From contig CAMYNX010000032.1 in the NCBI GenBank assembly GCA_947259875.1, positions 1-48,073 on the forward strand: a stretch of 48,073 bases of DNA. Reading direction: 5' to 3'. The position numbers and the translations under genes are program-made. Source of the stretch: an uncultured Gammaproteobacteria bacterium (lineage in GTDB: Bacteria > Pseudomonadota > Gammaproteobacteria > Arenicellales > JAANXG01). The notes under the pieces are model-generated. The model saw nothing but the letters and a program-made list of their open reading frames with translations. It was not told the origin of the DNA and did no database searches. How positions within the stretch are numbered: the stretch's first letter is position 1; the number at the start of each line of letters is the position of its first letter. Positions 4,743 to 32,957 of the stretch are shown piece by piece.

Positions 4743-5423
4743 ATGACCTATAGAAATTACTTACCGACTGTCGCGTTATTGGCCGCGATCTTGATTCTCG
4801 CTTGGGTGCTGTACGATGTCGGCCAGCGATTCATTCCCGCATTGTCTTCGGCGCGCGATGCTGCCCCCATTCAGGTGAAACCAGGCGCTAAAACGCCCTC
4901 CGAGAATTATCGCGTGAATCAGATAATTGCTGCTCATTTGTTCGGCGTCGCCGCTAAACAACAACCCGTGGTACAACAGGCCCCGGAAACCCGGCTGCGA
5001 CTGACACTATTGGGGGTCTTGGCCAGTAATCGAGACGCAACAGCCCGCGCGGTGATTGCCTCCGATGCGGCTTCTGATCGCAGTTATTCGATCGGTGATC
5101 GCATTAATGGCACCGACGCGAAATTGTACGCGATCGAAACGGATCGTGTGATCATTGAACGTGGCAAACGTCTGGAAAAGCTGAGTCTGGAACGTCCGGA
5201 TCTCGCATCGGCGCCATCATCCCCGGCTCGTCCCACAGGGCGAACACGACGCGCCCCACAACAGCCGCGGGAGACCGAGGAACAGTCACAGCCCGATCCG
5301 CTCAAAGCGGCGGAACAGAAGGCACGGAAGTCACGGGAGGCACGGCAGGCGCGGCGGCGGCAGTCACGGAAACCGGGCCCCGATGGCAACCGCCAGCCTG
5401 AAATGCCACGCATACCTTTTTAG
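4743..5423 (+). CDS. GspC/type II secretion protein N-like membrane protein, no PDZ domain
   Basis: 226 residues. A short cytoplasmic start is followed by one membrane helix (about 8-27, LLAAILILAWVLY). A GspC homology region then covers about 55-150 (IIAAHLFGVA, LRLTLLGVLAS, ARAVIAS, YSIGDRING, VIIERGKRLEKL). True GspC proteins usually continue into a PDZ or coiled-coil region. Here that is replaced by a Pro/Arg/Lys-rich tail of about 75 residues (repeated RKSREARQARRRQSRK-type charge). No other gsp genes are in the window, so this is either an orphan or the start of a dispersed secretion system. Its role is unknown. Confidence 0.65.
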   Translation: MTYRNYLPTVALLAAILILAWVLYDVGQRFIPALSSARDAAPIQVKPGAKTPSENYRVNQIIAAHLFGVAAKQQPVVQQAPETRLRLTLLGVLASNRDATARAVIASDAASDRSYSIGDRINGTDAKLYAIETDRVIIERGKRLEKLSLERPDLASAPSSPARPTGRTRRAPQQPRETEEQSQPDPLKAAEQKARKSREARQARRRQSRKPGPDGNRQPEMPRIPF

Positions 5424-5530: not shown

Positions 5531-6403
5531 ATGTCAGTCAATACGGTACAGTTCATGTTGGTGCTGGCTTGTTTTGTTGTGGCCATGCCCCAGGCGGATG
5601 CGGATCTGTTTATCCGCTACCTGCCTTCCGATATCGCGCAGCATGCGTCCCCATCCCAGGCTGGTGCACAAACCGGACCGGAACCGGCAGACACCCCACA
5701 GCTTCGCGGTAATCTGGATATCTTTGTTGCGCAAGGGCGCGCATTGTTGTCGGGCACGGGACGTTCGGGACAAGAGTATTCCATCTGGTTCAACAGTGTT
5801 GACGACACGTTCCATGTTTTGGAGCGCTCCCACAACGGAGTTTTTGAGGTGTCGCGCACGTCTTTTGATGCGCTTGAAGCAGGTCGGCAACGGCTGCGAC
5901 AGGATCGTGACGCAAGATTGGCAAAATCGCCGCAAAAGGATCACGAAAAGATCAAACGTTTTGCTGCTAGCTTAGACAAGCGTTTGTACGGAGCGCGCCC
6001 GCAACTCGCGCAGTATCACGCTACCGAAAAAAAGGATCACAGTGGCATCTATTCCTGTACGCGAACGGAGGTAGTTGTCGCGCAAAGGAAGATCCGGGAG
6101 CTGTGCTCAACGAATCATACCGATCTAAATATCGCTGACAGCGATTGGTCGGTACTAGACAGAATGCAGCGTGTTGGCAAGGAGATCGCGACATCCACGG
6201 CTATTGGGGCGCGCTTGATCCCGCGATTCGTACTCGATTTGGCCCACGGTATTCCGATAAAGATAAAGTACCTGGAACCGGGAACTAACAGCAACGATCT
6301 GGTTCTTCAACAGGTATCAAACAAAAAAATAGCGCTCGACAAGATGGCCAGTTACCAGGCCTACCGCAAATTGCCGTTGCCCACCCATCGGCCTGGTGTT
6401 TAA
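5531..6403 (+). CDS. Secreted protein of unknown function
   Basis: 290 residues with an N-terminal signal peptide (about 1-24, ending VAMPQADA-D). The mature part has FNSVDDTFHVLERSHNGVFEVSR, which resembles the beta-sheet opening of periplasmic carrier-type domains, a charged helical middle, one CTRTEV..ELC cysteine pair (about 176/192), and a basic C-terminus. I do not recognise a family. It lies 107 bases behind the GspC-like gene on the same strand, so cotranscription is possible. Its stop overlaps the end of the convergent lasso B2 gene by four bases, which places it outside the lasso transcript. A substrate of a secretion system is only a guess. Confidence 0.55.
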   Translation: MSVNTVQFMLVLACFVVAMPQADADLFIRYLPSDIAQHASPSQAGAQTGPEPADTPQLRGNLDIFVAQGRALLSGTGRSGQEYSIWFNSVDDTFHVLERSHNGVFEVSRTSFDALEAGRQRLRQDRDARLAKSPQKDHEKIKRFAASLDKRLYGARPQLAQYHATEKKDHSGIYSCTRTEVVVAQRKIRELCSTNHTDLNIADSDWSVLDRMQRVGKEIATSTAIGARLIPRFVLDLAHGIPIKIKYLEPGTNSNDLVLQQVSNKKIALDKMASYQAYRKLPLPTHRPGV

Positions 6404-6882
6404 GTTACAAACGTGGGTTGAAACGAAGGCAAGCGGTAGAGCTTGGTGAACGCACTGATGCCCTCAACCGTATCATTTAATACCACCCCGTCTGCCTCTA
6501 ACCAGGCATGACCTTGAATATCGCCGCGGTTTTTACGGATCCCAATGGCGATCTGAGTCCTGAATCCGGCGCGACGACATAACGCGTGAAGCGCTAGACT
6601 CCTGCCCAGGCAGTTCACGTTCAAAAAGTGGTTGCGTGCTGCAATCGCAATGTTCTGGGCGATTTGTTTGCACTCCTGTTGCGCAGCCACGGTGGATGAC
6701 CCACCGTGGTCAGTATTTATTGCAGTATTGAGGCGCTTTAGCCAGTACCGGTAGGGTAGGACGTTGAGCGAAAACTGTACCAGCATTAACGTCCACCATG
6801 CACGCGCGATATTCCATCTTCGCTTGAGCGGCAGGGTTGAGGCGGTGCGTATTTTTCTAACCAGCACTTTCAATAAGTGCAT
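6400..6882 (-). CDS. Lasso peptide leader peptidase B2 (transglutaminase-like)
   Basis: Cytosolic cysteine protease that removes the leader from the lasso precursor, working with the B1 recognition protein. About 160 residues from the ATG at 6882; a TTG at 6900 would add six residues. The papain/transglutaminase-fold triad is visible: Cys in NVNCLGRSLALHALCRRAGF, His in GHAWLEADG and Asp in VVLNDTVEG. The N-terminal helix pair LPLKRRWNIARAWWTLMLVQFSL is typical of B2 proteins. The gene overlaps the end of B1, indicating translational coupling, and is the last gene of locus 1. It is the only B2 in the window and may also serve the second precursor. Confidence 0.88.
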   Translation of the reverse strand: MHLLKVLVRKIRTASTLPLKRRWNIARAWWTLMLVQFSLNVLPYRYWLKRLNTAINTDHGGSSTVAAQQECKQIAQNIAIAARNHFLNVNCLGRSLALHALCRRAGFRTQIAIGIRKNRGDIQGHAWLEADGVVLNDTVEGISAFTKLYRLPSFQPTFVT

Positions 6883-7129
6883 GTTGCTGTAACTCGTCAA
6901 TCAGGTCCTGGATGTCTCGTTCGAGAATGGTTTGTTCGACATCGAATTCTTCCAGTAAGTTTTGAGTTATCGAGGTAATGTCTTCGCCGCGTGACATGAG
7001 CTGAACGATGCGCGCTCCAATCTCGTTCAAGCCATAATACTGGCCGTCCGCGAGATTTAGGATCACTATCTCGTTGGCGACTTCCTGCAACAGGATATCG
7101 TTGGAGAGTTTGTATAAAGTCCGTGGCAT
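6857..7129 (-). CDS. PqqD-like lasso peptide B1 protein (RiPP recognition element)
   Basis: About 90 residues, the usual size of a stand-alone RRE that binds the leader peptide and delivers it to B2. The PqqD fold pattern is clear: DILLQEVANEIVILNLADGQYYGLNEIGARIVQLM, then a charged helix and a final wing (LERDIQDLIDELQQHALIE). I chose the ATG at 7129 because it sits seven bases after the K1 stop. An upstream start at 7174 would overlap K1 and add a tail unlike the family. The 3' end overlaps B2. No second B1 accompanies locus 2. The YxxPxL part of both leaders is the expected ligand. Confidence 0.88.
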   Translation of the reverse strand: MPRTLYKLSNDILLQEVANEIVILNLADGQYYGLNEIGARIVQLMSRGEDITSITQNLLEEFDVEQTILERDIQDLIDELQQHALIESAG

Positions 7130-7136
7130 CGTATGT

Positions 7137-8051
7137 TCAGTGAAAACTCTTTTTATGCCTGGTGTCAACGTCATTCACAACCGCATGATAAATATCGTCA
7201 AGGTGATGCATCCCATTAGGGTAAGTGAGACGGCGAACGGGGAGCGTTTCTACAATCCGTGCGAGGCGCGGCAAACGGTGCGGTTGTAGTCCAAGGGCCT
7301 GCAAGGTATTGGCGGCGGATGAGCCCCGGATCAAGGCACGCAACCCTTCGGCGGGCGTCAGGTCTTGAATCGCAATTCGTGCTTTGTCGTCCGCGACGCG
7401 ATGCAGAACATAGATGTAAGAAATTTTCACCGGTTTGTCGTGAAACATCCCGAATCCTGAAACGCCGACGGGAATCATTTTTTTTCCGATCTGTGGGTGT
7501 ACGCGCGACCGGGTTTCGGCGTCCGCGACAAATCGGTGCGCGACGTCAGAACATAACCGTATTTGAGGGTATCCCGGCCGGCCCCACACTGCTTGCGGCG
7601 TGACGGTTAGCGGAAGGATGTCGTCGGTCAGCAATGCGTGCTGATGGCTCAAAAAGGTCGCCGCAAGTGTTGATTTCCCGCTACCGCTGCTTTCCAGCAA
7701 CATAATCGCTGATTCGTCTACCACCACTGCTGACGTGTGCAGCGCCAAAATGTCATTGAATTCCAGCCACAGTGCCGATGCATGTATATGCCGTGGTGTG
7801 ACCATAATGTCCACAAGCCCTGGATATCGTATTAAGAGTCTTTGCTCGGTTCCGTATGTTTTCAGGAACGGCGAACCGTTACGGACCAGGGGGCTGGTAA
7901 AAAGGCAATTTGCCGGGGGTTCCGACAACTCGTGGACGCGCCGAAGTTCGACGTCGGTCTGGCTATCGGTGGGAGTCAAACAGGAGCGAAGGCGAAGGTC
8001 TGTCTCCCAAACAAAACCGTAAACAAAATATTTGAGTAATCGTCTTGTCAC
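7137..8051 (-). CDS. HPr-kinase-like protein of lasso locus 1 (K1)
   Basis: 304 residues, GTG start at 8051. The C-terminal half has the HprK-type nucleotide-binding fold: LALHTSAVVVDESAIMLLE, the P-loop SSGSGKSTL (about 121-129), then HALLTDDILPL with the acidic pair characteristic of this family, and GRPGYPQIRL. Related kinases in lasso clusters (paeninodin and relatives) phosphorylate a C-terminal hydroxyl residue of the precursor. Core 1 ends in Thr, which is a plausible target here by inference. K1 lies between precursor A1 and B1 in the same orientation. The 134 bases between A1 and K1 contain a weak GCCG/CGGC hairpin and no gene. Confidence 0.85.
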   Translation of the reverse strand: MTRRLLKYFVYGFVWETDLRLRSCLTPTDSQTDVELRRVHELSEPPANCLFTSPLVRNGSPFLKTYGTEQRLLIRYPGLVDIMVTPRHIHASALWLEFNDILALHTSAVVVDESAIMLLESSGSGKSTLAATFLSHQHALLTDDILPLTVTPQAVWGRPGYPQIRLCSDVAHRFVADAETRSRVHPQIGKKMIPVGVSGFGMFHDKPVKISYIYVLHRVADDKARIAIQDLTPAEGLRALIRGSSAANTLQALGLQPHRLPRLARIVETLPVRRLTYPNGMHHLDDIYHAVVNDVDTRHKKSFH

Positions 8052-8185
8052 GCAAAACCAAGATGAATAAAAGCGGTGATACGGCCTCGCTTGTGGTCCG
8101 ATCCCGTCAGTACCGGATCAGCATTTTAGAGAGAACGCCGGCTAAGCGGCAGATTCAATAACAAAAACGCCGTGGAATCGAACCC

Positions 8186-8353
8186 TCACGTGCCCCCCGT
8201 GCCCGTAAAGCCATCATCCACAGTCCCGCCCAAACCACCTCGGGTGATGTCCTTGACGCGACCCCAGCGGGTCAACGTTGGTCGGGAATATGTTTTCTTA
8301 TCCTTGCCTGGACGCAGCCGCCTGTGTTCCCGATCTTGGCGTTTCGGTTTCAA
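8186..8353 (-). CDS. Lasso peptide precursor A1
   Basis: 55 codons from a TTG at 8353 to a TGA at 8186-8188. An AGGGG sequence lies six bases before the TTG, and an in-frame TAG (8371-8373) closes the frame upstream. The N-terminus is very basic (MKPKRQDREHRRLRPGKDKK). The leader ends YSRPTLTRWGRVKDITR, containing the YxxPxL recognition motif and the penultimate Thr required by lasso leader processing. The predicted core is GGLGGTVDDGFTGTGGT, 17 residues, with Gly1 and Asp8 or Asp9 as possible ring acceptors. Phe11 is the only bulky tail residue. The gene sits between cyclase C1 and kinase K1. The identification rests on motif, position and similarity to A2; the mature product is predicted only. 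Confidence 0.9.
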   Translation of the reverse strand: MKPKRQDREHRRLRPGKDKKTYSRPTLTRWGRVKDITRGGLGGTVDDGFTGTGGT

Positions 8354-8421
8354 GACCAACCCCTGAGTTATCTAAACGCTATTGTAGCTAAAATCAACGC
8401 TTAGATCATCATCGATGCGCG

Positions 8422-10320
8422 TTATTGATTGTGATCACTAATGTGTAATTCCAGGTGGTAGCGTCGTAACCAGGTCTCCAGGGTGATTGGGAACCAGAAC
8501 ATCGCTCCTTTCATGGGCCTGCTGCCGGTACGAAAATCTTCCCATGCGCGACGCAGTTCGAACCTATTGATGAAACCCAGTGCGGCACAGATAGGGTCTT
8601 CAAACAACATCGAAATCCTGTCCGCGGAAATCTTTCTTAGACTGAAGTCTACGAACGCGGTTGAATAGGTCTTGTCCTGGCGGTTGCGAATGGCCTCGGG
8701 CAGTATACCGCGCAGCGCATTTCTCAATACCACCTTGGTCTTGCCTGCGTGGAACAATTGCTCGTTGGGTAGGGAGAGCACGTACTCAACCAGGCGTCGG
8801 TCCAGGAACGGGTGCCGGCATTCGAGACCAAACTCGGAAGCAGTGCGGTCCAGGTAATAGATTGCCCGGGCGACACTTCCGAGGTGCAGCATCTCGGTAA
8901 CACGCTCATGCCGGCCGCGACTATTTATACCCGGCAGGCGTGATTGCGTCCGCAGGCGGTGGCTCAACCCGATTCGGTTGGCAAACTGGGGCTCGATCCA
9001 TGCCGGGAAAGCCGGATCCTGCCATGGGGATTTGGTCTGCAGGATTGCCTTAACCGTATTGGGGATGAGGGGCCGCAGGAGATAGCGGCTCACCAGTTCC
9101 AACATCGACCGGTGCCGGAGCGCTGCGTGGACACGCATATCGCGAAACACCCCCAGATCGCCGCGCAGGAGTCGATCTAAATAGGACAGACCGCTGCCGG
9201 TCAACAGGCTATCGCCGCCATGGCCGGTTAGCAACACCGTTATCCCCAAATCCTGACATCGTTCGTAGAGATACCGCATGCAAGACGCGAAGCTTTGAAA
9301 CGGAGACTCCAGTTGCGGACAAAACGCCGCCTCATCCGCCAACAGCCAGAACCGTTCGGTGGGTACAGGCTCGATGTCCAATCCCAACTCGTGGGTCAAG
9401 TGGCGGCTGTAGTCGCGCTCATCGCACTGCACAAGTTGGTCATAAATCTGAGTGAAACCCTGGATCTTGGTGTCAGTATCGTAGTGCTGTGCGACGCTGG
9501 CGATGGAGCTGGAGTCCAGCCCGCCGCTGACAGTTATTGCCGCGCGTTCGAAGCCCCGTATTCGCTCCGTGACCGCGGTAATCAACAGCTCGCGAAAATG
9601 CTCGGCGTATAGACGTGGATCCGCGTATTGGATGAGTGGCAAGTCTTCGGGATGCCAGTAACGCGCCACCTGTATTCCATGACGCCGGGCAACCAGCGTG
9701 TGGCCAGCCGCAAGACTCTGGATGCCGACGAAAAACGTTTCCTGGAGATTCTCCCCGGCGCCCGCGAGGTACTCGCCGACTGTACCTTCGTTCAATCGAG
9801 ACGAGATCTCCGGGTGCTGTAAGATTTGCTGCGCTGCGGAAGCCACACATAGGCCGCGCGATAACTTTGTGTAATGCAGAGGTTTCACCCCCAGGGGATC
9901 GCGCGCGCAAAACAATGTTTGGTTGTCTGCGTCCCAAATGGCAAACGCAAAGTCGCCGATCAGACGCGATACGCACGCGATGTCCCATTTCAAGAAGGCC
10001 AAGAGAATCAGTTCGCAGTCGTCGTTAGCGATTGGTTTGTCATCGATACCCAGGGAGGACCGCAATTCTGTTCGATTATCAATACGCGCGTCTGCGGTAA
10101 TCAACCAGACGCGACCGTCTTGTTCGTGCCGAAGCAGTTGCGCAGTTTTCTTGTTGGCGGGATCGGCGTTCAGCGCTAGATGCGCAAAACCGCAGTCCTT
10201 GAATCGTTGGTAAAAGATGCCATCCGGTCCGCGATGTGGCGCGCCTTCCGCCACCGCCCGCAATGCATCATGGGTAACCGGCGATCCGTCAAACTGTGCA
10301 ATTCCTGAGATGCCGGCCAC
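8422..10320 (-). CDS. Lasso cyclase C1 (asparagine-synthase-like macrolactam synthetase)
   Basis: About 632 residues. It activates the Asp/Glu side chain of the core with ATP and closes the ring onto Gly1. An N-terminal glutaminase-like domain (AGISGIAQFDG, HRGPDGIFYQ) precedes the synthetase domain with PP-loop VSGGLDSSSIASV and TGHGGDSLLTGS. The glutaminase nucleophile Cys2 is absent (Met-Ala-Gly), as expected for an enzyme that needs no ammonia. The GTG at 10320 gives the family N-terminus. An ATG at 10371 in the same frame would add 17 residues encoded by a palindromic intergenic element, which I consider less likely. It is the first gene of locus 1, 68 bases before A1. It lies just behind the terminator of the SdrD-repeat gene. 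Confidence 0.9.
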   Translation of the reverse strand: MAGISGIAQFDGSPVTHDALRAVAEGAPHRGPDGIFYQRFKDCGFAHLALNADPANKKTAQLLRHEQDGRVWLITADARIDNRTELRSSLGIDDKPIANDDCELILLAFLKWDIACVSRLIGDFAFAIWDADNQTLFCARDPLGVKPLHYTKLSRGLCVASAAQQILQHPEISSRLNEGTVGEYLAGAGENLQETFFVGIQSLAAGHTLVARRHGIQVARYWHPEDLPLIQYADPRLYAEHFRELLITAVTERIRGFERAAITVSGGLDSSSIASVAQHYDTDTKIQGFTQIYDQLVQCDERDYSRHLTHELGLDIEPVPTERFWLLADEAAFCPQLESPFQSFASCMRYLYERCQDLGITVLLTGHGGDSLLTGSGLSYLDRLLRGDLGVFRDMRVHAALRHRSMLELVSRYLLRPLIPNTVKAILQTKSPWQDPAFPAWIEPQFANRIGLSHRLRTQSRLPGINSRGRHERVTEMLHLGSVARAIYYLDRTASEFGLECRHPFLDRRLVEYVLSLPNEQLFHAGKTKVVLRNALRGILPEAIRNRQDKTYSTAFVDFSLRKISADRISMLFEDPICAALGFINRFELRRAWEDFRTGSRPMKGAMFWFPITLETWLRRYHLELHISDHNQ

Positions 10321-10348
10321 GATTACGAAAGTCGGGAATATAGAAAGA

Positions 10349-10396
10349 GGGGTCAGCCCCCATTTTCTCATGGAATGGGGTCTGACCCCATTTTTT
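10349..10396. repeat. Two tandem GGGGTC-AG-ACCCC palindromes with ATTTT
   Basis: Copies are GGGGTCAGCCCCCATTTT (10349-10366) and GGGGTCTGACCCCATTTT (10377-10394, T-run to 10396), 28 bases apart. Each is an imperfect palindrome followed by a T-run on the plus strand. The pair lies over the putative start of cyclase C1, so it could affect C1 expression or be a small dispersed element. No plus-strand gene precedes it, so a plus-strand terminator would have no obvious client. Confidence 0.6.
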
Positions 10397-10401
10397 AAGG
10401 C

Positions 10402-10433
10402 AATAAAAAACCCCCCGGGAATGCCCCGGGGGG
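10402..10433 (-). terminator. Rho-independent terminator of the SdrD-repeat gene
   Basis: Stem of CCCCCCGGG (10411-10419) and CCCGGGGGG (10425-10433) with a five-base loop. Read on the minus strand it is followed by six U (10410-10405) and then UAUUG. It stands 40 bases behind the stop of the 1577-residue protein and just before cyclase C1. It should separate the two transcripts, though readthrough is possible. Confidence 0.88.
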
Positions 10434-10472
10434 AGGTTCAGTGGGGTTTGAACCTAAGCAAACTGTCAGCAA

Positions 10473-13400
10473 CTACCAGCCGGACCAACTGAACCGCGTG
10501 CCGCTGCGGTGGTCCTTGCTGGCGCCGTCGCCGCTGCTGTCGTCGTCATCGCTGCTGGCGTCGTCTTCACCCGGCCCGCAGATTGCGTTGGGGTGAAAGT
10601 CGCTGCTGGCGCCGTCGCCGCTGCTGTCGTCGTCATCGCTGCTGGCATCGTCGGCGCGATGATAACCGCTACTCCTGCTGGCGCCGTCGCCGCTGCTGTC
10701 GTCGCCGTCGCTGCTGGCGTCGTCACCCCCAGTCGGGCAACCGCAGCGTTTTCTAGTACCGCTGCTATCATCGCCGGACTTGCTGTCACCAGATTTGCTA
10801 TCGTCGGATTTGCTGTCGCCAGATTTACTGTCGTCGGATTTGCTATCGCCAGACTTGTTGTCATCGTCCGCGACACATTCCTCCGCACACAGCGGGCCGC
10901 CCCTGAGGCTTTCCCCGGCGATGACCTCGAAATTGCCGAACACCAGTCCCGGCCCGATCGGTTGCGAGCAACTGGTATGGATCTTGGTATTAAGGTGCCC
11001 GTTGACATAGACCGATATCTCGGTGCCCAAGGTACCCTTGTAGGAGCCGATAAAGCTAAAGGTTTGGCCAGGTTGCACCACGCCATCGAACACCACTGCC
11101 CCGTCTTTCTTCTGCTTCACCACGACATGGGAATTGTTCACGTGGCCGAGGTACTTGAGCGTCAGCTCGGTAACCTTGCCCTCGCATTTACCGCAGCGTT
11201 GTTGTGGAGCGAAGTATCCGAAGTCAAAGGTATCGTCGTCGCTGGACACGCTGCGGGTAATCGAATTACCGCCGGTGGTGTTGTCCTGGCCCTGCAACTG
11301 GCCGGTCGCGGCATAACCGAAGTTGATGTCGCTGACATCGGCGCCGGCCAGAGACACCGGTTGCCCGCTCACCGCGGCTGCCGTGGTCGGTAACAAGTCG
11401 GTCAGTTCACCGCTGACATCGGTCACCACCAGCCGGTATTCGCCGTCGGGCAGATCCAAGAAGCTGAAGTCGCCGTTGGCGTCGGTGGTGGTTTGCGCGA
11501 TCACGTAGTTGTCGGGGCCGATGAGCGCAACGGTAACGTCGGCGATGCCGCTCTCGGCGCCGTCCTGCGACATGTTGCGGTTAGCGTCCCGCCACACCCG
11601 GTCAAAAATCGCAAACAACGGGGTCGTGCGGTAGCCAAAGTCCACATCGAGGTTGATCTCTGCTGCCCCAAGCGCGACCACGGCAGGATCGATGCCCCCT
11701 GACATCGCGTAGCCTTCCAGGGCGCCGCCGGGATCAAAATTGCTGTCGGCGACATCCACGGTATAGGTGCCGGGCTCCAGGCCGGCGAACAAGTAATAGC
11801 CGCCTACCGTGGAGGCTGTGGCGACCACGGTAGCGCCGCTGTTGATCAGATTTACGACCACGCCGCTGATCCCGGGCTCGCCGGGCCCTTGGGTCATGGA
11901 ACCATCGCTATCGAACCACACGAAATCACCGATTGCCGCCTTACCCGCGGTCCCGTACCCGAAATCGAGGTCGAGGAATGCGCCGCCGGTAGCCGGGATC
12001 GTGACCCCCGCACTCGGGTCGCTGCCGCCGGATAGCGACAAACCAGCCGGCAGGGTGCTGCCGACCACACTCGTGTAGTAGCTGCCGGGCGCGAGGTTGT
12101 TGAAGCTGTAGAACCCGTTTCCGTCGGTACCGGTGGCGGCGAGCGCGGTGTCGGTGGTCGCGTCAAAAAGCATGACGCTGACATTGGGTATGCCGGGTTC
12201 ACCGTCATCGGCGCCATTGCCGTTAACATCCAGCCATACCCGGTCACCGACGATGCCCAAAGGCGCAGCGGACAAGCTCTCGGGACATACCTCGATCGTA
12301 TACTCGCCGGGCAGTACCGGGAACTCGTATTTGCCGCTGCCGTTGGTGACCGTGCGGCCGATCAAGTTGCCATCGCCATCGCGCAGGTTCAAGCACACCC
12401 CTGGGATCCCCGGTTCGCCAGGATCAGGCAGGCCGCTCTGATCCAGGTCCGCGAACACATCATCGCCGATGACCACGGGATTTAATTGATAGCCAAAGTC
12501 ATAGGTCAGGACATCCTGGTCCTGCACCGAATCGGTGATCTCCTGGGGCGGCGCACCGCCGGGCGTGGTATTGAAGGTATTGGCGAGCTGTCCTTGGACA
12601 TTGAAACCGAAGTGATTGCCGGTAACGTCAAATCCGGCGACCATCACGGCGTGGCTGGTTAATCCGGCCGGCGTCGTCGGCAGCAAACCTGCCAGCACGC
12701 CGTTGGTGTCGGTTAACACCATACGGTAATCGCCGTCGGGCACCCCGGCAAAACTGAACACCCCGTTGTCGTCGGTGGTGGCCACCGCCACCGAAATGTC
12801 ATCGCCGAAGATGCCCTGACTTTCATTCAGACTGACGGTCGCATCAGCCAAGCCGAGTTCGTCCGCATCGCGCACACCGTCGCGATCGGTATCCAGCCAC
12901 ACCGAATCGGTAATCATCGGCAGGTTGTCCCGCAGGTATCCGAAATCCTTGTCGAGCAAGGCATCGCCGGCGACCACTGCGAACGGTTCGGTGCGATCGG
13001 TGGGCAATGCGCTGCCGTTGGGCCCGAATACCCAGTCGTAATCGGTCAAGCGGGCACGCAGATCGGTGACTTCCACGATGTAGGTGCCATCGGCAACATT
13101 GGTGAACAGATAACGACCGCCGATGGTGTCGGCCGTCGCCGCCACCGTGTCGGTATTGCCATTGATACCGCCAATAGCGCCATCGTCGCCCAGATCGATC
13201 AACGCCACGGTGACGCCGTTGAAACCGGGTTCTTCCGCTTCGCGCATGCCGTTGTTGTTGACGTCGGTCCAGATCAGGTTGCCGATCATGGCGTCAGCGG
13301 CATTCTGGTAGCCAAAAGAAACGTCGAGTGCTTCGGTAGCGGTAATAGTGAGTATTGCACTGGGATCGATACCCCCTGAGAGCGTCAAACCTGCCGGTAC

Positions 13401-15206
13401 CGTGCCGTCGACCACATCGACGGTGTAGTCGCCGGGTGCGAGGTTGTTGAAGCGAAACAAACCATCGGCATCGGTGAGCGCCGCCCCGAGCGCGTTAACG
13501 CCGGCATCACGCAGGACTATCCTGATATTTCCAAGCCCGGCTTCGCCGGGATCTTGGGTTCCATTACCGTTGGCGTCCAGATACACGCCACAACCAATGG
13601 AACCCCGGGGGCCGAGGTCGCTGAAGTTTTCCGGTGCGACTTGAACCGTATACAGTGCGGCCGCCCCTTGGTTGCCTTCGGTCACGCGGAATTGATAGCG
13701 TCCGTCGGTGTCAGTGATGGTCTGATTAATCAGGTTGCTCTGGCTGTAGACGTTCATGAGTACGCCGGGGATTCCCGGCTCATCGTCGTTGTCGGGGCCT
13801 AAACCACCCCCGAGCGTGTCGCCATCTAGGTCCTGCCACACACGGTCACCGATGCGCACCGATTCGGGCTCGGGGCACGGGTTGCCGTCAGAGTCCACGC
13901 AGATTGCCGGCACGCGCCAGGCGTTGAAGTTCTGCTGATCCATTCCGCGAAGCACGATCTTATAGATGCCCGGCTTGAGATCCGCGATACCCCAATAATC
14001 CGCGGTGGAGGGGTTCTCAATCGCCTCGGATAAACGGAACTGCTCCCATTCCTGGTTCCCCGAGGGATTGTCGTTAACGAAGCGCGTCCCGCCGGGCCAG
14101 CCCGTATCGTCGGCGGGAAACACATCATATGCGACGGCTGGCGTCCGTACCAAGGCGCGCCTGAATAGGTTTAGGTCTTCCGGGATGGCAAAGTTGTCTG
14201 GTGGATTGTTGGAGTTAACCGGTTGTGCACCCTCAAATTTGGTGTCGGTGACCGCCCACACCGGCAACAGGTCATTGGGAGTGTTGGGATCATCGGTATC
14301 GAGCATCGTATTGTCGAATGACCCGCGGTCGAGGTCGCCGTCCCAGGCCACGAATTCTGTGGGGTCGACGCCGCCTTCGCCCGGCACGCCGTTGCGAGCA
14401 AAGAACGTGAACGTGCCGTCATAAGTGGTGTTGGGAGCATAATTGGGCTCCTTGGGCGTTAATTTGTCACCAAATCCAACCGGGTAGTCGTGATTTGGGT
14501 CGCCCACGTTATTGGGCCAGTCGGGAAAAATGATCTCGGCGTCGGCGAAGCTGTAGATCGGCGCTTGGAATCCGAATGGCTCACCGATGGTGGCCAACAC
14601 CGAGTCCGGGGTAACACGCAATTTGAAGTTGGAGATCGAGCTGCTCGCGGGGTTCGCCAAACGCACGCGCAACCGATAGCGATACAGGCCGTCCTCACCC
14701 TGGGCGCGGGCTTCGGTGTTGATTGTCGGCGCTGAAAACCAAGCGTTATCCGGCATCGCATTACCAATCCCGGTCAAAGGCCACGCGGGATTGTTGACCG
14801 GATCCCCGGTTCCATCGGCATAGAACATTTCAAAGTTCAAATCTTGTCCGAGCGTAAAGTTCAGATCCCAGTGCGAATCGGGGCCCCCGGTCAAATTGGT
14901 GTCGCCGTCGAAGATCTGGATTTGGAACTGGCCGACATCACTGGGAACCGCGATCCGGATGTTGATGTCCTGGGCGGTCAACGTGGATAAGTTCGCGCCC
15001 GGTATCGACAGAAATCGCCCGTCCGTTTCATCGCAGCTCGGCAGGCAGTTGGAAACCACCTGGGCCATCGCGCCGCTTGGTATGCTCAAGGCCATCCACG
15101 TTGCGAGCGACAACAGCAGATAGCTGAGTCGACCGACGCGAATCGGCGACGAGATTTTATTGTTAAGCTTGCCCAGATTAGAGCAGATCTGTGTTTGGAT
15201 AATCAT
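10473..15206 (-). CDS. Giant secreted SdrD-B-repeat protein with Ser/Asp-rich tail
   Basis: 1577 residues from the ATG at 15206, which has GGGGTG eight bases upstream. The signal peptide runs to about residue 48 (hydrophobic LSYLLLSLATWMAL, then AMA-Q). A unique beta-rich region to about 480 is followed by eight SdrD-B-like domains, each opening with a variant of IGDRVWxDxNxNGxxDxxExG and closing with DFGY. A Cys-containing domain comes next (CGKCEGKVTELTLKYLGHV). The last 150 or so residues are low complexity: about six KSGDS/KSDDS units, then three DDASSDDDDSSGDGAS-type blocks, ending FSWSGW. SdrD-B domains bind calcium and form stiff stalks, so a surface or matrix adhesin is likely. No LPxTG or PEP-CTERM anchor is present. 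An upstream in-frame extension would run through the riboswitch and is rejected. Confidence 0.85.
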   Translation of the reverse strand: MIIQTQICSNLGKLNNKISSPIRVGRLSYLLLSLATWMALSIPSGAMAQVVSNCLPSCDETDGRFLSIPGANLSTLTAQDINIRIAVPSDVGQFQIQIFDGDTNLTGGPDSHWDLNFTLGQDLNFEMFYADGTGDPVNNPAWPLTGIGNAMPDNAWFSAPTINTEARAQGEDGLYRYRLRVRLANPASSSISNFKLRVTPDSVLATIGEPFGFQAPIYSFADAEIIFPDWPNNVGDPNHDYPVGFGDKLTPKEPNYAPNTTYDGTFTFFARNGVPGEGGVDPTEFVAWDGDLDRGSFDNTMLDTDDPNTPNDLLPVWAVTDTKFEGAQPVNSNNPPDNFAIPEDLNLFRRALVRTPAVAYDVFPADDTGWPGGTRFVNDNPSGNQEWEQFRLSEAIENPSTADYWGIADLKPGIYKIVLRGMDQQNFNAWRVPAICVDSDGNPCPEPESVRIGDRVWQDLDGDTLGGGLGPDNDDEPGIPGVLMNVYSQSNLINQTITDTDGRYQFRVTEGNQGAAALYTVQVAPENFSDLGPRGSIGCGVYLDANGNGTQDPGEAGLGNIRIVLRDAGVNALGAALTDADGLFRFNNLAPGDYTVDVVDGTVPAGLTLSGGIDPSAILTITATEALDVSFGYQNAADAMIGNLIWTDVNNNGMREAEEPGFNGVTVALIDLGDDGAIGGINGNTDTVAATADTIGGRYLFTNVADGTYIVEVTDLRARLTDYDWVFGPNGSALPTDRTEPFAVVAGDALLDKDFGYLRDNLPMITDSVWLDTDRDGVRDADELGLADATVSLNESQGIFGDDISVAVATTDDNGVFSFAGVPDGDYRMVLTDTNGVLAGLLPTTPAGLTSHAVMVAGFDVTGNHFGFNVQGQLANTFNTTPGGAPPQEITDSVQDQDVLTYDFGYQLNPVVIGDDVFADLDQSGLPDPGEPGIPGVCLNLRDGDGNLIGRTVTNGSGKYEFPVLPGEYTIEVCPESLSAAPLGIVGDRVWLDVNGNGADDGEPGIPNVSVMLFDATTDTALAATGTDGNGFYSFNNLAPGSYYTSVVGSTLPAGLSLSGGSDPSAGVTIPATGGAFLDLDFGYGTAGKAAIGDFVWFDSDGSMTQGPGEPGISGVVVNLINSGATVVATASTVGGYYLFAGLEPGTYTVDVADSNFDPGGALEGYAMSGGIDPAVVALGAAEINLDVDFGYRTTPLFAIFDRVWRDANRNMSQDGAESGIADVTVALIGPDNYVIAQTTTDANGDFSFLDLPDGEYRLVVTDVSGELTDLLPTTAAAVSGQPVSLAGADVSDINFGYAATGQLQGQDNTTGGNSITRSVSSDDDTFDFGYFAPQQRCGKCEGKVTELTLKYLGHVNNSHVVVKQKKDGAVVFDGVVQPGQTFSFIGSYKGTLGTEISVYVNGHLNTKIHTSCSQPIGPGLVFGNFEVIAGESLRGGPLCAEECVADDDNKSGDSKSDDSKSGDSKSDDSKSGDSKSGDDSSGTRKRCGCPTGGDDASSDGDDSSGDGASRSSGYHRADDASSDDDDSSGDGASSDFHPNAICGPGEDDASSDDDDSSGDGASKDHRSGTRFSWSGW
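10517..10722 (-). repeat. Three imperfect Asp/Ser-coding repeats in the SdrD-repeat gene tail
   Basis: Three copies of a unit starting GCTGCTGGCGCCGTCGCCGC on the plus strand begin near 10517, 10602 and 10672. They encode the protein blocks DDASSDDDDSSGDGAS and are separated by unique spacers carrying Cys or aromatic residues. Internal, in-frame DNA repeats of this kind expand and contract easily. Confidence 0.75.
10777..10866 (-). repeat. Tandem 15-bp repeats (KSGDS/KSDDS)
   Basis: About six 15-bp units, alternating versions that encode KSGDS and KSDDS, just upstream in the coding direction from the larger Asp/Ser blocks. They stay in frame. Copy number is likely variable between strains and is easily miscounted by assemblers. 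Confidence 0.75.
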
Positions 15207-15261
15207 CTTACGTACACCCCACATGTATTTAAGACTCGAAGAAACGCAATCATCCCGTCCA

Positions 15262-15351
15262 GTTGCCTTGGCGACCCGGCTGTCTTGACAGTACGTAAGA
15301 TCCGCGGCTTTCCGTACCTGCCTGACGGCAGGTTTGGCTTTTGCGAGCAAC
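15262..15351 (-). promoter_or_regulatory. Cyclic-di-GMP-I (GEMM-I) riboswitch
   Basis: A 90-nt aptamer upstream of the SdrD-repeat gene. Outer stem P1 pairs GUUGC (15351-15347) with GCAAC (15266-15262). The conserved CGCAAAAGCCAAACC is followed by P2, a perfect 6-7 bp stem CCUGCC/GGCAGG with loop GUCA, and then by UACGGAAAGCC. P3 uses GG-A-UCUU and AAGA-CA-GCC, and the 3' core GACAGCCGGGUCGCC matches the family. Aligned from memory to the V. cholerae Vc2 aptamer, the specificity G (G20) is kept, which argues for c-di-GMP over cGAMP. The neighbouring G-C pair is swapped to C-G, a compensatory change. The loop GUCA is not a standard GNRA tetraloop. The gene start lies 55 nt downstream. Confidence 0.87.
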
Positions 15352-15380
15352 CCCCATTACAGTCATCCCTGGCGCCGATG

Positions 15381-15434
15381 AACCGGTTACCTTAAGACCG
15401 GTTGGTCGGCTGTAACGAGCCGGTCATCGGCTCG
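15381..15434. promoter_or_regulatory. Nested inverted repeats between the SdrD-repeat gene and lasso locus 2
   Basis: Two perfect 7-bp hairpins occur: AACCGGT/ACCGGTT (15381-15403) and CGAGCCG/CGGCTCG (15416-15434, loop GTCAT). In addition GCCGATGA (15375-15382) and TCATCGGC (15424-15431) are complementary, so one larger cruciform can form. The pair sits between divergent transcripts, close to a TACAAT-like -10 (about 15438) for locus 2. An operator or a structured 5' region is possible. A further GTGAC-TAT-GTCAC palindrome lies at 15523-15535. No gene is present between 15352 and 15621. Confidence 0.45.
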
Positions 15435-15621
15435 TGCTTTACAATTGTACTCGTTATGATCTCGGAAGAAAAACGTAAAAGTCTCATTTTTGTGACATCA
15501 AGCAAAAAATTCATGCGCGGATGTGACTATGTCACCGACCTTATCGCGGCCAACGTCGAGTACAACGAGCCAACGTCACTTTTTTGATCAGAAAACCTTT
15601 AGTAACTAGGTAGCCGAAGTT

Positions 15622-17475
15622 GTGAGTGGTCTTGCGTTGAGTTTCAGCCGCGACGATCGCCCGGCGTCGCCGAGTGTCGTTGAGGCGATGCTCTCGGTGA
15701 TGGATTATCTCGGTCCTGACGGCATGCATGTCGAGGCCAAAGGGCCGGTGGCGCTGGGCCACCTGCAGTTCTGCACGATGCCCGAGGATATCGGGGAACG
15801 CCAACCGCTATCACTTCCCGAGGCGTCGTTGACCTTTATGTGGGACGGGCGGCTGGATAACCGCCTGGACGTGTACCAACAATTGCCCGGGCGCCTGCCA
15901 CGGCTGGAGGACCTGTCCGACGCGCAGTTGGTTCTGCACGCCTACGCCTGCTGGGGCAGTGCCTGTGTCCGGCGCCTCCTGGGGCCGTTCGCGTTGGCGG
16001 TTTACGACCATTCACAGCGCGAAGTGGTGCTGGCTTGCGACCCCATGGGAGGACGTAATATTTTTTATTGGCTGTCGGAGCACACGCTAGTTGTGGCCTC
16101 TGAACCCGGCGGTGTGCTCGCCCACCCTGACGTTAATATTGAGCCCGATCACGGGCCGATGGTGATGTTTTTCGCCCACACGGAGCAGACCGATGCCGCG
16201 ACGTTGTTCCGCGGGGTCAAGACGTTGTTGCCGGCGCAGACGATGCGTGTGGGATTGGACTATGTGGCTACCGAATCGTTTTGGCCGTTTGATCCCAAGG
16301 TCCGGCTCCATTACCGCAAGGATGAGGAGTATGCCGAGCATTTTCTCGAATTGTTGACGAACAGTGTCGAGTGCCGTTTGCGAGCCACGGGTGAGCCGGC
16401 GGTGGCGCTGAGTGGAGGACTGGATTCCGCGCCGATTGCTGCGCTGGCCGCGCGCTGCTTGAGCACGCAAGGCCGCAGGCTCACGGCGGCGTCGTGGGTG
16501 TTCGACCAGTTCGCCGCATGCGATGAACGTGAGTACCTGGAGCAGATGTATCGCGTCCATAACCTCGAACCGTTACAAGTCAATTGTGATGCGGCGTGGC
16601 CGTTGAGTGACTTCGACACTTGGCCGATCCACCCCTGCGCGCCGTTTCAGAATCCCTATCGGCGTTTTCATGAGCACCTATACCGCGATCTTGAGCAACA
16701 GGGTGTGCGGGTGTTACTGAGCGGATTGATGGGAGATCATCTGTATACCGGCACCGAGCGGTGGCTCGGGGATTTGCTAGCGGAGCGCCGCATCGGGAGC
16801 GCAATGGGAGATGGTATCGGGTACATCATCGCGCATGGGTGGCGCGCGTTTGTGACGCAAGGGTTGTTGCGGGGCCTGCTTCCCCATCGCATCTATCGGA
16901 CCCTGCGGCCAAGGCCGGTACCTGAATGGCTAACGCCGTTTGCCCGTAGCCATCTCAATGGCAGCGACCCCTGGCCCCAGGAGTCCGAACAAGCCCGGCG
17001 TCCGCATCAATATTTGCGGGCGTTGGAACTGGTTACCGGCTTGGGGTACATAGAACGCTACTTTGCCAGGCGTTATCGAATCGAATTACGCTATCCGTTC
17101 CGGGACCAACGGTTGGTGGAGTTCATGCTCAAGATTCCCACCCATCAACTATATTCCCGCGGCATTAAACGGCCCATTGTCCGCAGCGCAATGCGAGGCA
17201 TCGTGCCCGCGGCAATCCTGGCGCGGCAAACAAAGACTTCATTTCAATCGTTGTATACATTTGGATTGTGTGAAAAAGAGTTAACCCGGATTAGTCAATG
17301 GTTGGATGACCCCGATAACCTCTGGTGCCGATACGTGGATCGGGACTGGTTACTCGCCAATCGCGACTGCGAACGCATGAGTGGATATGTCGGTTGGCTG
17401 TGTATTTCACTCGAAATGTGGAGCAGGTATACTTCGGTTGGCGCTGCGTTTCGCAACGCGCAAAAATTGCCTTAA
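15622..17475 (+). CDS. Lasso cyclase C2 (asparagine-synthase-like)
   Basis: 617 residues, GTG start at 15622. The layout is the same as C1: an N-terminal glutaminase-like domain without the nucleophilic Cys (MSGLALSFSRDD; LTFMWDGRLDNRLDVY), then a synthetase domain with PP-loop ALSGGLDSAPIAAL. The second synthetase motif is degenerate (SGLMGDHLYTG instead of GHGGDxL). It is clearly diverged from C1, so the two loci are not a recent duplication. The stop codon is 16 bases before precursor A2, so the two are surely cotranscribed. Expected role: ATP-dependent ring closure of core 2 onto Gly1. Confidence 0.88.
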   Translation: MSGLALSFSRDDRPASPSVVEAMLSVMDYLGPDGMHVEAKGPVALGHLQFCTMPEDIGERQPLSLPEASLTFMWDGRLDNRLDVYQQLPGRLPRLEDLSDAQLVLHAYACWGSACVRRLLGPFALAVYDHSQREVVLACDPMGGRNIFYWLSEHTLVVASEPGGVLAHPDVNIEPDHGPMVMFFAHTEQTDAATLFRGVKTLLPAQTMRVGLDYVATESFWPFDPKVRLHYRKDEEYAEHFLELLTNSVECRLRATGEPAVALSGGLDSAPIAALAARCLSTQGRRLTAASWVFDQFAACDEREYLEQMYRVHNLEPLQVNCDAAWPLSDFDTWPIHPCAPFQNPYRRFHEHLYRDLEQQGVRVLLSGLMGDHLYTGTERWLGDLLAERRIGSAMGDGIGYIIAHGWRAFVTQGLLRGLLPHRIYRTLRPRPVPEWLTPFARSHLNGSDPWPQESEQARRPHQYLRALELVTGLGYIERYFARRYRIELRYPFRDQRLVEFMLKIPTHQLYSRGIKRPIVRSAMRGIVPAAILARQTKTSFQSLYTFGLCEKELTRISQWLDDPDNLWCRYVDRDWLLANRDCERMSGYVGWLCISLEMWSRYTSVGAAFRNAQKLP

Positions 17476-17491
17476 ATCTATAGACAAAATC

Positions 17492-17683
17492 GTGAACCAC
17501 GGTCGGCCCAAAGAAAATCGCGCCAAAACAATTCCCACGAGCGATGTTCGATCTTTACCTTTAAGGAAGAAGAAACATTACCAGCGGCCGGTCCTGACTG
17601 CGTACGGCGATGTGCGCGATGTGACCTTTGGCTCTCCAACCGATAGCGGTGAGAGCGGCAATCCGACGTCATTTCGTAACTGA
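17492..17683 (+). CDS. Lasso peptide precursor A2
   Basis: 63 codons from a GTG at 17492 to the TGA at 17681-17683. No clear ribosome site precedes it, so coupling to C2 (stop at 17475) is likely. The leader is basic (RKKKH) and ends YQRPVLTAYGDVRDVTF. It matches leader A1 at Y, RP, L, T, G, V, D and the penultimate T. The predicted core is GSPTDSGESGNPTSFRN, again 17 residues, with Gly1 and Glu8 for an eight-residue ring. Phe15 and Arg16 are candidate plugs. Unlike core 1 it does not end in Ser or Thr. The frame extends upstream into C2, but that part is only a shadow of C2. Confidence 0.9.
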   Translation: MNHGRPKENRAKTIPTSDVRSLPLRKKKHYQRPVLTAYGDVRDVTFGSPTDSGESGNPTSFRN

Positions 17684-17708
17684 CGGACGTCAACTATCCG
17701 TGCCGCCT

Positions 17709-18614
17709 ATGCCGGCCATCTTTGTCCGACTAGCGCTTGCCCAGGAAAACCCCGACACGGTGGTCCGCGCGTACCGCATCGCCGGGTGCCGGTTTTGGGT
17801 CGATGCCTGCCTGCCAATGCTCGAGGCATTCCGCGAACCGCGCTTGCAGACCAAGCAATTTTCGTCTCAGGTCATGCCCAAGGTAGCGGTGGATAACATG
17901 GATGCCAGCGCCGAGCGGCGGGCAGAGGGGTGGGTCGGCGGTGTGCGTCAGGCGGTACGCTGTGGGCAGGTTGCCGACGGTTACGTCATCCAGGCAAGGG
18001 CTTTGCGGTTTTTTGTGCGTGACGACGGCAAGTGGATTGAACTGTTGGACCATCCCGAGAGCAACTCAGAAATGACGGACCTGTTGCTGGGTCCGGTACT
18101 GGTGTTGGCGTTGGCGTTACAACGACGATGGTGTCTGCACGGTGGTGCGGTGATTCAGCAAGGCGCGGCGATATTGTTCCTGGGCGAGTCGGGGTTTGGG
18201 AAATCGACCATTGCTGCTTGGTTGTCGGCGCCACACTCCGCGATGCAACGTCTTGCCGACGATGTCGTGCCCGTGGCCATGAATGGCAGCTTGCAAAGCC
18301 TCCCGCCGTATCCGCAATTTAATCTACCTGTCGCGCAACAGTATGCAGACTCCGCGCCGATTGCCGTAGAGCAAATATACGTGCTCGAGCCCGGGTCCGA
18401 AAATATACCGGTGACCCATGAGTTACCCGCGGGCGCCGCCGCGTTGGCGGTTGCCCGGCACACGTTATCAGCGCGCCTATTCCCGGAATCTTTGTTAGCA
18501 AGGCATCTCGAATTTTGCGCACAAGTCGCTGAAACGACGCACATTACGGCGTTGGAGTATCCGCATAACCAGCAATCCCTGGACATGCTCATGGAGATTA
18601 TCGAGCGCGATTGA
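17709..18614 (+). CDS. HPr-kinase-like protein of lasso locus 2 (K2)
   Basis: 301 residues from the ATG at 17709. A GTG at 17700 is the alternative; starts further upstream would overlap A2. The HprK-type fold is marked by CLHGGAVIQQGAAILFL, P-loop GESGFGKSTI (about 159-168), then LADDVVPV and LPPYPQFNLP. It resembles K1 in motif order but is divergent elsewhere, with a longer N-terminal half. Phosphorylation of precursor A2 is inferred from kinases of other lasso clusters. Core 2 has Ser2, Thr4, Ser6, Ser9, Thr13 and Ser14 as possible sites. The gene's TGA overlaps the ATG of the next gene by one base (TGATG). Confidence 0.83.
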   Translation: MPAIFVRLALAQENPDTVVRAYRIAGCRFWVDACLPMLEAFREPRLQTKQFSSQVMPKVAVDNMDASAERRAEGWVGGVRQAVRCGQVADGYVIQARALRFFVRDDGKWIELLDHPESNSEMTDLLLGPVLVLALALQRRWCLHGGAVIQQGAAILFLGESGFGKSTIAAWLSAPHSAMQRLADDVVPVAMNGSLQSLPPYPQFNLPVAQQYADSAPIAVEQIYVLEPGSENIPVTHELPAGAAALAVARHTLSARLFPESLLARHLEFCAQVAETTHITALEYPHNQQSLDMLMEIIERD

Positions 18615-19993
18615 TGCCGGCACCGACGACCTCCGGAGGGTACCGCGGATGGCTTCACGTCATGTGGATGGTGTTGTGCGTGGCGGCCGTGACCAATGGC
18701 GCGACGTTCTGGGGAAAGCGCGTCGGCTGGCTCGAGCCGGATGCCTACCATGCCTACCTTGCCGAGAAGTCCAGCTTCAGGGTTGCTTCACGACTCGATC
18801 CTGCCTATAGCGAGGCGCAGAAATTCCAGGGGCGGGCGACAAGCCGGCTTTACGCGGTCACGGAAACCCAGGTGATAACCAAGCTTGCCAAGTTCGGAGT
18901 GATCATATTAATCGTCGCTATCTCGCTGTGGACTGCTTGGCGCGAGGGTCGCCTGCCGGCGGCTTGGACGCAGCCCTTGTTTCTCGTATTTACGGCGTTG
19001 GTGCTGTGCGGCGCGATCGCGTCATGGATGCGTTACGGTGGTCTGCTGCTGTTGCCGGGCCTGCGTACGTTCGCGTTTCTTGCGGTCGCCTTCAGCGTCA
19101 CCTGGCTCGCCTCAACCAGAAGCTTAGCTTTATTGTCCAACTATCTGATTGGATTAGTGTTTCTTCAGCTCATATTAATGCCGCTCGAGATCATGTGGGG
19201 CTTGGATATCTTTACCGGAAGGGGGCTGTCGCTGTTGCCCGGAGATCGCATAACAGGCACTTTCCTGCAACCGACGACGCTGGGGCTGTTTTGCGTCATC
19301 GCGCTGATGTTCTATGTTTGCTTTGCAAACCCGCCGCCGCGAATGCAAGCTGCCACGGTGGTCGCGAGCGGTATCGTCATCATCGCGTCGGCGTCGGCGT
19401 CGGCATTGTTACTGTACCTGTTGGTGGTTGGCTACACATTTGCCGCCGCAGGTGGATTCCAGCACCGGACACGGGTGGCGGTGATAGTGGTGATCGGCGT
19501 GCTGGCGTTGCTGGCGTTACCCTGGCTAACCGGACGACCAGAGGTTTTTACGTCGATGTTTGGGCGCATCCTATGGATTCAATGGTACCTCAGCGAGGCG
19601 CCGGGACCGGCGACCGTACTGTTTGGCGAAGGACTCGGAGTCGGCACCAACGCGGCGGTCCATTGGCTCCGCTACGCAATCGATCACGGTACCGAGGTCC
19701 CTTTGCGGTTGCTGCGCGGTGGCAGCAACTCGACGCTGCAAAGTCTTATCAGCCAGGTCGGCGTGGTCGGCGGCCTCGGTTTTTATGGGCTATTGGCCTA
19801 CGGGGCATGGGGCGACCCCCGGGCCAGGCCACTGTATGCGGTGATCGGTATCGCCAGCCTGGCGACCAACGTAATCGAGTTTTTTCCGGTGAATGTGCTG
19901 CTTGGATTGTTGTTGGCCCACAGCGCCGCCACAATGCAAGGAAGTTTATCGCGACAACAGAAAAACACCTCATACATAAGGGTAAGTTGCTAA
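18614..19993 (+). CDS. O-antigen ligase/polymerase-like polytopic membrane protein
   Basis: About 459 residues with roughly ten predicted membrane helices. The long periplasmic loop before the last helices contains FGRILWIQWYL and LFGEGLGVGTNAAVHWLR, the kind of loop seen in Wzy_C-type ligases and polymerases. It starts at the ATG overlapping the K2 stop, so it is translated with the lasso genes. No lipopolysaccharide genes are adjacent. Lasso loci usually encode an ABC exporter here; this one encodes none. Whether this protein exports, glycosylates or otherwise handles the peptide, or is an unrelated passenger, cannot be decided from sequence. Confidence 0.65.
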   Translation: MPAPTTSGGYRGWLHVMWMVLCVAAVTNGATFWGKRVGWLEPDAYHAYLAEKSSFRVASRLDPAYSEAQKFQGRATSRLYAVTETQVITKLAKFGVIILIVAISLWTAWREGRLPAAWTQPLFLVFTALVLCGAIASWMRYGGLLLLPGLRTFAFLAVAFSVTWLASTRSLALLSNYLIGLVFLQLILMPLEIMWGLDIFTGRGLSLLPGDRITGTFLQPTTLGLFCVIALMFYVCFANPPPRMQAATVVASGIVIIASASASALLLYLLVVGYTFAAAGGFQHRTRVAVIVVIGVLALLALPWLTGRPEVFTSMFGRILWIQWYLSEAPGPATVLFGEGLGVGTNAAVHWLRYAIDHGTEVPLRLLRGGSNSTLQSLISQVGVVGGLGFYGLLAYGAWGDPRARPLYAVIGIASLATNVIEFFPVNVLLGLLLAHSAATMQGSLSRQQKNTSYIRVSC

Positions 19994-32807: not shown

Positions 32808-32836
32808 TTGCCCGAAAAAGGGGCCTGTGCTATAAA
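32808..32836 (+). promoter_or_regulatory. Sigma-70 promoter of rpsB-tsf
   Basis: TTGCCC (32808-32813), a 17-base spacer and TATAAA (32831-32836), followed by GCGCCG. The roughly 120-base leader from here to the rpsB ATG has no ORF. Known gammaproteobacterial rpsB leaders mediate S2 autoregulation, so a structured leader is expected, but I could not fit a specific fold. Confidence 0.75.
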
Positions 32837-32957
32837 GCGCCGTCATTTTTTAAACTTCGCACGCAGGTCGACACGGTTGCCCGGGTGCCTCGCGAATTGT
32901 TCGCTGGGGTCGGCGGCTGGGACCTTCGTTAGTGTAAACCCGAACGGAGAAAATTCG

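Follow-up and report, generated by a model that had tools for sequence, protein, structure and literature searches.

The window analysed here, 48,073 nucleotides from an uncultured gammaproteobacterium of the order Arenicellales (contig CAMYNX010000032.1, assembly GCA_947259875.1), probably encodes a single extended lasso-peptide system with two predicted products, and the giant surface-type protein between its two loci (SURF) is of a DUF7467/SdrD_B kind that is a recurrent partner of the lasso locus, an association that is new here. Locus 1, on the minus strand, contains the cyclase C1, the precursor A1, the kinase-like gene K1 and the leader-processing genes B1 and B2, while locus 2, on the plus strand, contains the cyclase C2, the precursor A2 and the kinase-like gene K2 (table 1). 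Open reading frames (ORFs) and profile scans confirm the cyclase–precursor–kinase order on opposite strands (10320-7137 and 15622-18614) that a sequence-only reading of the window had proposed, and the profiles support its picture of two diverged kinase-bearing lasso loci flanking one giant surface-type protein. Recent duplication of one cluster is rejected because C1 and C2 share just 28% identity. Both cyclases exceed the Pfam cut-off for Asn_synthase (PF00733), and the top NCBIfam model for each is the lasso cyclase NF033535 (E 3e-116 for C1 and 8e-95 for C2, both under the 525-bit cut-off). The region holds B1, B2 and C proteins together with precursors that have a leader, Gly1 and an Asp or Glu at positions 7–9, the composition of a lasso cluster.

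Table 1. Coordinates of the lasso-peptide region and its accompanying genes, numbered from the first nucleotide of the window.
Feature	Position	Strand	Basis
NTF, nucleotidyltransferase PF14907 (NTP_transf_5)	3459..4598	-	Pfam E 7e-38
GspC-like protein (type II secretion)	4743..5423	+	TIGR01713 E 4e-18, below cut-off
PER, protein with a LolA-like predicted fold, probably exported	5531..6403	+	AlphaFold2 (AF2) pLDDT 81; Foldseek
B2, leader peptidase, transglutaminase-like	6400..6900	-	NF033537 E 8e-20, over cut-off
B1, PqqD-like leader-binding protein	6857..7129	-	PF05402 E 1e-16, over cut-off
K1, HPr-kinase-like protein	7137..8051	-	TIGR04352 E 8e-6, PF07475 E 1e-4
A1, lasso precursor, TTG start tentative	8186..8359	-	NF033521 22.5 bits
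C1, lasso cyclase (Asn-synthetase-like)	8422..10320	-	PF00733, NF033535
SURF, giant surface-type protein	10473..15350	-	SdrD_B PF17210 E 9e-115, DUF7467 PF24269 E 1.5e-11
C2, second lasso cyclase	15622..17475	+	PF00733, NF033535
A2, lasso precursor, GTG start tentative	17492..17683	+	NF033521 19.7 bits
K2, HPr-kinase-like protein	17628..18614	+	PF07475 E 0.014
MEM, polytopic membrane protein	18611..19993	+	best fold match WaaL O-antigen ligase (weak model)

The SURF ORF is 1625 codons long, with a true start probably at 15206-15224, and encodes SdrD_B repeats, a DUF7467 domain near the C-terminus and an Asp/Ser-rich C-terminal end; no LPXTG sortase anchor is present in its C-terminal 190 residues. 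Altogether, 12 of the 22 DUF7467 proteins found adjoin a lasso cyclase. The 60 related genomes hold 16 such proteins, 11 of which adjoin C1 (G000 C32, G001, G002 C22, G003 C91, G004 C52, G005, G006, G007 C10, G007 C32, G032 and G037 C94) and five of which do not adjoin a cyclase (G000 C18, G002 C131, G015 C17, G004 C57 and G007 C2). A class-wide draw of 369 genomes yielded five more: one adjoins lasso genes in the order SURF-C1-A-K1-B1-B2 (G334 C12, of another family, f122), and four lie apart from lasso genes (G185, G130, G188 and G334 C2, the last below the family cut-off). Sampling 398 genomes across the phylum gave one more protein (G695), which does not adjoin lasso genes. The adjacency spans three families, f1 (genus g1, G006 and G007), f7 (G032 and G037) and f122 (G334), and the 12 instances are not independent events, because the genomes are related. 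SdrD_B by itself tells little, since proteins with this domain are common (28 of the 60 genomes). In several relatives one of the two gene sets keeps company with a giant protein of this surface type, and this conserved gene neighbourhood hints that the lasso peptides work at the cell surface. Few lasso peptides have, to our knowledge, an established natural role, and a cyclase–precursor–kinase cassette accompanied in several families by the same type of surface protein provides a concrete partner with which to test it. The sequence-only reading had called SURF a c-di-GMP-linked adhesin, a link that finds no support in the proteins scanned: a Pfam scan of 30 proteins, a set smaller than all ORFs and confined to the window, gave no protein of GGDEF, EAL, PilZ or LapD/LapG type, and the gene at 2245-3072 scores 220.6 bits on a cyclic AMP phosphodiesterase model, just under its cut-off of 225. 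A 3178-residue protein with SdrD_B and peptidase C25 domains lies between a cyclase/precursor pair and a K2-like kinase at L120 1972-11508 (G037 C145).

Comparison of gene order shows that the block is kept in the six genus genomes searched (over two contigs in one of them) and in a sister genus. The order GspC-PER-B2-B1-K1-A1-C1-SURF-C2-A2-K2-MEM-rpsF is found in G001, G002, G004 and G005; in G003 it extends over two contigs, each ending within SURF, and G007 keeps the order with 13 kb between the cyclases, a space that contains SURF and another large protein with SdrD_B repeats. G006 retains K1-A1-C1-SURF-MEM, with B2 behind MEM. The B2 family is present in 41 of 194 related genomes, including all six genus genomes searched (G000-G005). 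In G001 an additional ORF lies between A1 and K1 (L081 4975-5658) and by eye resembles a fusion of phosphoribosyltransferase and PqqD-like domains. Further afield, a metagenome-assembled genome from Acidobacteria (L136) holds a 43% C2-like cyclase, a precursor with the core GPSPGVGESGNPTVFRAEGAAPLPGAD and a K2-like gene, along with a protein that has GEVED and P-domains, which points to a possible transfer.

Both precursors exceed the 19-bit cut-off of NF033521 (lasso_leader_L3). The A1 core, GGLGGTVDDGFTGTGGT at 8189-8239, follows a leader that ends in YSRPTLTRWGRVKDITR, and the A2 core, GSPTDSGESGNPTSFRN at 17630-17680, follows a leader that ends in YQRPVLTAYGDVRDVTF. The candidate rings join Gly1 with Asp8 (or Asp9) in A1 and with Glu8 in A2, and the C-terminal residues are Thr and Asn, respectively. 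A1 is present in all eight genomes inspected (G000-G007; G001 by eye), with the cores GGLGGTVDGDFTGTGGT (G002), GATGSSDDGFTGSAGT (G003), GMTAGMADGFTGTGGV (G004), GPVGGTADGLTGTGGT (G005), GNTTGTSDGGLTGSGGTT (G006) and GPSSGSTDGLSGSGGT (G007); the G001 core, read by eye, is GAAGNVGDGAGGSFFF, and there the penultimate leader position is Ile. A2 occurs in G000-G005 and G007, and a recognizable A2-like precursor accompanies 22 of 24 cyclase loci. In each of these 22 the residue after the ring acid is Ser, as Glu8-Ser9 (18), Asp8-Ser9 (three) or Asp9-Ser10 (one); the acid is part of the A2-like search pattern and the Ser is not. Precursor patterns require Gly, Ala, Ser, Cys or Gln as the first residue and an acid at positions 7–9, so unusual precursors are missed. 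At four C1-like kinase-bearing loci (G043 C33, G021 C27, G029 C3 and G043 C69) no precursor was recognized even with a looser pattern, and these loci are left out of all precursor counts.

Few sites are available for estimates of selection, expressed as the ratio of amino-acid-changing to silent substitution rates (dN/dS). For A2 this ratio is 0.11 against G002 (two amino-acid-changing and six silent changes over 38 codons), 0.11 against G004 and 0.34 against G005; for A1 it is 0.43 against G002 and 0.72 against G005, the last value being too high because the comparison crosses an indel without a gap. An origin of the precursor ORFs by chance is rejected because leaders and cores are conserved in relatives. 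The earlier proposal would have failed had relatives lost the precursors and kept the enzymes, and among the relatives inspected the precursors are conserved.

The genes for B1 and B2 are found in locus 1 only. The earlier description of both regions as lasso biosynthesis loci had missed this, and is corrected here in that locus 2 is without its own B1 and B2. The own draft genome contains a single B2 match, and one B2 each is found in G001-G004, G006 and G007 despite two or three lasso cyclases per genome; G005 has two, the second of which adjoins a third lasso cyclase. Because locus 2 lacks B genes and a leader motif is common to both precursors, sharing is the simplest reading, and locus 2 probably borrows B1 and B2 from locus 1. 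That one leader-peptidase pair apparently serves cyclases so far apart in sequence is testable. The missing B genes could also mean that locus 2 is a decaying cluster from which no peptide is made, and a stop was counted inside the aligned C2 and K2 of G002 and the K2 of G003 and G004. We consider this very improbable: relatives hold open C2 frames of 613–679 amino acids and K2 frames of 301–321 amino acids, the K2 stops would fit a query start placed too far upstream, six relatives (G001-G005 and G007) carry C2 at 58-85% identity, and the low A2 dN/dS points the same way.

The kinase-like genes raise a separate question. The K2 gene probably starts near 17700 and not at 17628, and it is conserved next to C2-A2 in relatives. 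All 24 aligned K1/K2 proteins, those of the window included, share an invariant His, the GKS residues Lys and Ser, and two invariant Asp residues, and both window proteins thus carry the His-Lys-Asp-Asp set of the HPr-type kinase of paeninodin-kind clusters. According to two reviews, lasso kinases modify a C-terminal Ser that is conserved across kinase-bearing clusters (PMC9266682, PMC8498205). Neither A1 nor A2 ends in Ser, and among 25 precursors at kinase-bearing loci only two do (G012 and G037 C41, neither in the window). These 25 comprise 11 of A1 type (G000-G007, G032, G334 and G025 C267), 12 of A2 type (G000-G005, G007, G006 C59, G012, G017, G023 and L136) and two from G037 (C41 and C145) with the kinase one gene and ~10 kb away. 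Seven A1-type precursors have Thr as the last residue; in G017 and G037 precursor and cyclase are encoded on opposite strands, and in G023 B2 sits between precursor and kinase. With the residues intact and the Ser rare, most of these kinases would use Thr or an internal Ser, or do something else; intact kinases beside precursors without the known phosphate site pose a question open to testing. The kinases might instead not be directed at the peptides, and together with PqqD-like and nucleotidyltransferase genes form a separate HPrK-PqqD system that merely neighbours the cyclases. This is unlikely in our view, even though the best profile match of K1 is HprK_rel_A, K2-like, NTF and B1 genes stand by rpsF and away from a cyclase in G034 and G047, and the C-terminal Ser is missing from 23 of the 25 precursors; in G000, G002-G007 and G334 the cassette has K1 next to A1, and the invariance of the kinase residues also weighs against it.

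Three further proteins go with the cluster, an association that is new here: the PF14907 nucleotidyltransferase NTF, the probably exported protein PER with its LolA-like predicted fold, and the membrane protein MEM, whose best fold match is WaaL. The sequence-only reading had overlooked NTF, PER and the fold of MEM. NTF occupies the same position in G001, G004, G005, G006 and G007 and lies next to GspC/B1/B2 in G008 and G012. It supplies a nucleotidyltransferase gene within the cluster of the kind seen with pseudomycoidin, whose PsmN is presumably a PF14907 member. PER homologues lie near C1 in G032 and G037, and MEM is near lasso genes in nine of the 10 genomes that carry it. PER and MEM have no match in Pfam or NCBIfam. 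Foldseek places both PNGF-II and LolA at low template modelling (TM) scores for PER, so that a fold class alone is suggested, and the best fold matches of MEM are WaaL and RodA/FtsW; MEM was considered as an exporter and set aside because its fold fits these best. The GspC-like gene adjoins B1/B2 in G008, G012 and G017 and B2 in G034, and its place beside the B genes is a possible link to secretion; of two GspC matches in the own genome, the one at 4743-5423 is the better and the other is weak.

In the mechanism that we propose, drawn in its first steps from the known lasso pathway, B1 would bind the YxxPxL...G leader of A1 and A2, B2 would cleave both leaders, C1 would join Gly1 to Asp8 (or Asp9) of A1, and C2 would join Gly1 to Glu8 of A2. 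K1 and K2 may then phosphorylate the peptides at sites other than a C-terminal Ser: the C-terminal or a tail Thr in A1, and the Ser after the ring Glu, or a tail Ser or Thr, in A2. The PF14907 protein may attach a sugar or nucleotide to the phosphate, as has been reported for pseudomycoidin. No ABC (ATP-binding cassette) exporter occurs among the genes scanned, and the products would leave the cytoplasm without the usual one. Judging from gene neighbourhood alone, they may function with SURF, either in the envelope or on the cell surface, and PER and MEM are the candidate proteins for their transport or attachment. A bolder version, to which we give little credence, is that phosphorylated, sugar-linked lassos are parts of the surface and not diffusible antibiotics, and that a WaaL-like ligase and a LolA-fold carrier attach them to a glycan of the cell surface or to SURF itself, at its Ser/Asp-rich tail, which would give a cell surface decorated with lassos.

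Several observations weigh against a single extended system. Both products are known here from genes alone, and the matches of K1 and K2 to HPr-kinase models are weak, all falling below cut-off. The own draft genome, in 390 contigs, is 91% complete and may lack a second B2 for that reason, and B2 genes could likewise be missed in G003 (74% complete), G004 and G007 (both 86%). The C2-, A2- and K2-like genes of G006 lie on a separate contig. The LolA match of PER (8cgm_A, E 2.4e-4) has low TM-scores of 0.30/0.42, the model of MEM is of low quality, and the G015 MEM is away from lasso genes. Ten of the 22 DUF7467 proteins lie away from a lasso cyclase (four of them at contig ends: G000 C18, G002 C131, G015 C17 and G334 C2), and the mapped f10/g14 lasso loci are without SURF, so that SURF is a partner of one type of locus and not of every lasso locus. 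These last two points, together with the frequency of SdrD_B in the order and the fact that known lasso pathways work without a surface protein, would also suit two ordinary diffusible lasso peptides, antibiotic or signal, with SURF an unrelated adhesin caught between inherited clusters. We regard this as a realistic possibility but not the favoured one, as DUF7467 adjoins C1 in the genus, G006, G007 (twice), G032, G037 and G334, and A1 tails remain similar among relatives, G001 deviating.

The single extended system has likenesses to several known ones. Paeninodin and the proteobacterial SyanA/SyanK are kinase-tailored lasso peptides whose kinase has His-Lys-Asp-Asp, and they resemble the present region in combining a lasso cyclase, leader-processing genes and such a kinase (PMC9266682, PMC8498205). 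In those peptides a conserved terminal Ser takes the phosphate, unlike here; in addition, two cyclases here appear to share one B1/B2 pair, and a surface-type protein is linked. The pseudomycoidin cluster carries the kinase psmK and the nucleotidyltransferase psmN (PMC9266682, PMC8498205), and the region likewise has both kinds of gene; unlike in that cluster, the PF14907 gene lies two opposite-strand genes away from B2, and there is no terminal Ser. SURF shares SdrD_B repeat domains with the SdrD/MSCRAMM adhesins and differs from them in its Gram-negative host, its DUF7467 near the C-terminus and the lack of LPXTG noted above. MEM differs from the WaaL O-antigen ligase in its lack of a family match and in its position among lasso genes, as far as its weak model allows comparison. 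A literature search, in which subscription papers were mostly not covered, found no description of such a lasso–surface-protein cassette.

Some neighbouring features were also observed. The B1 ORF reaches 7174, and the Met at 7129 is the likelier start. K2-like kinase, PF14907-like and B1 genes adjoin rpsF at L126 8169-10531 (G034) and L129 6874-9232 (G047), and G034 has its lasso cyclase at a different place. In the window, ribosomal protein S6 (20151-20834) is 227 amino acids long and has a long, acidic, repetitive C-terminal tail, the S6 model spanning residues 1-93. The ORF for ribosomal protein S2 (32808-34133) encodes 441 amino acids, of which the S2 domain occupies 59-274 and is followed by a long C-terminal extension.

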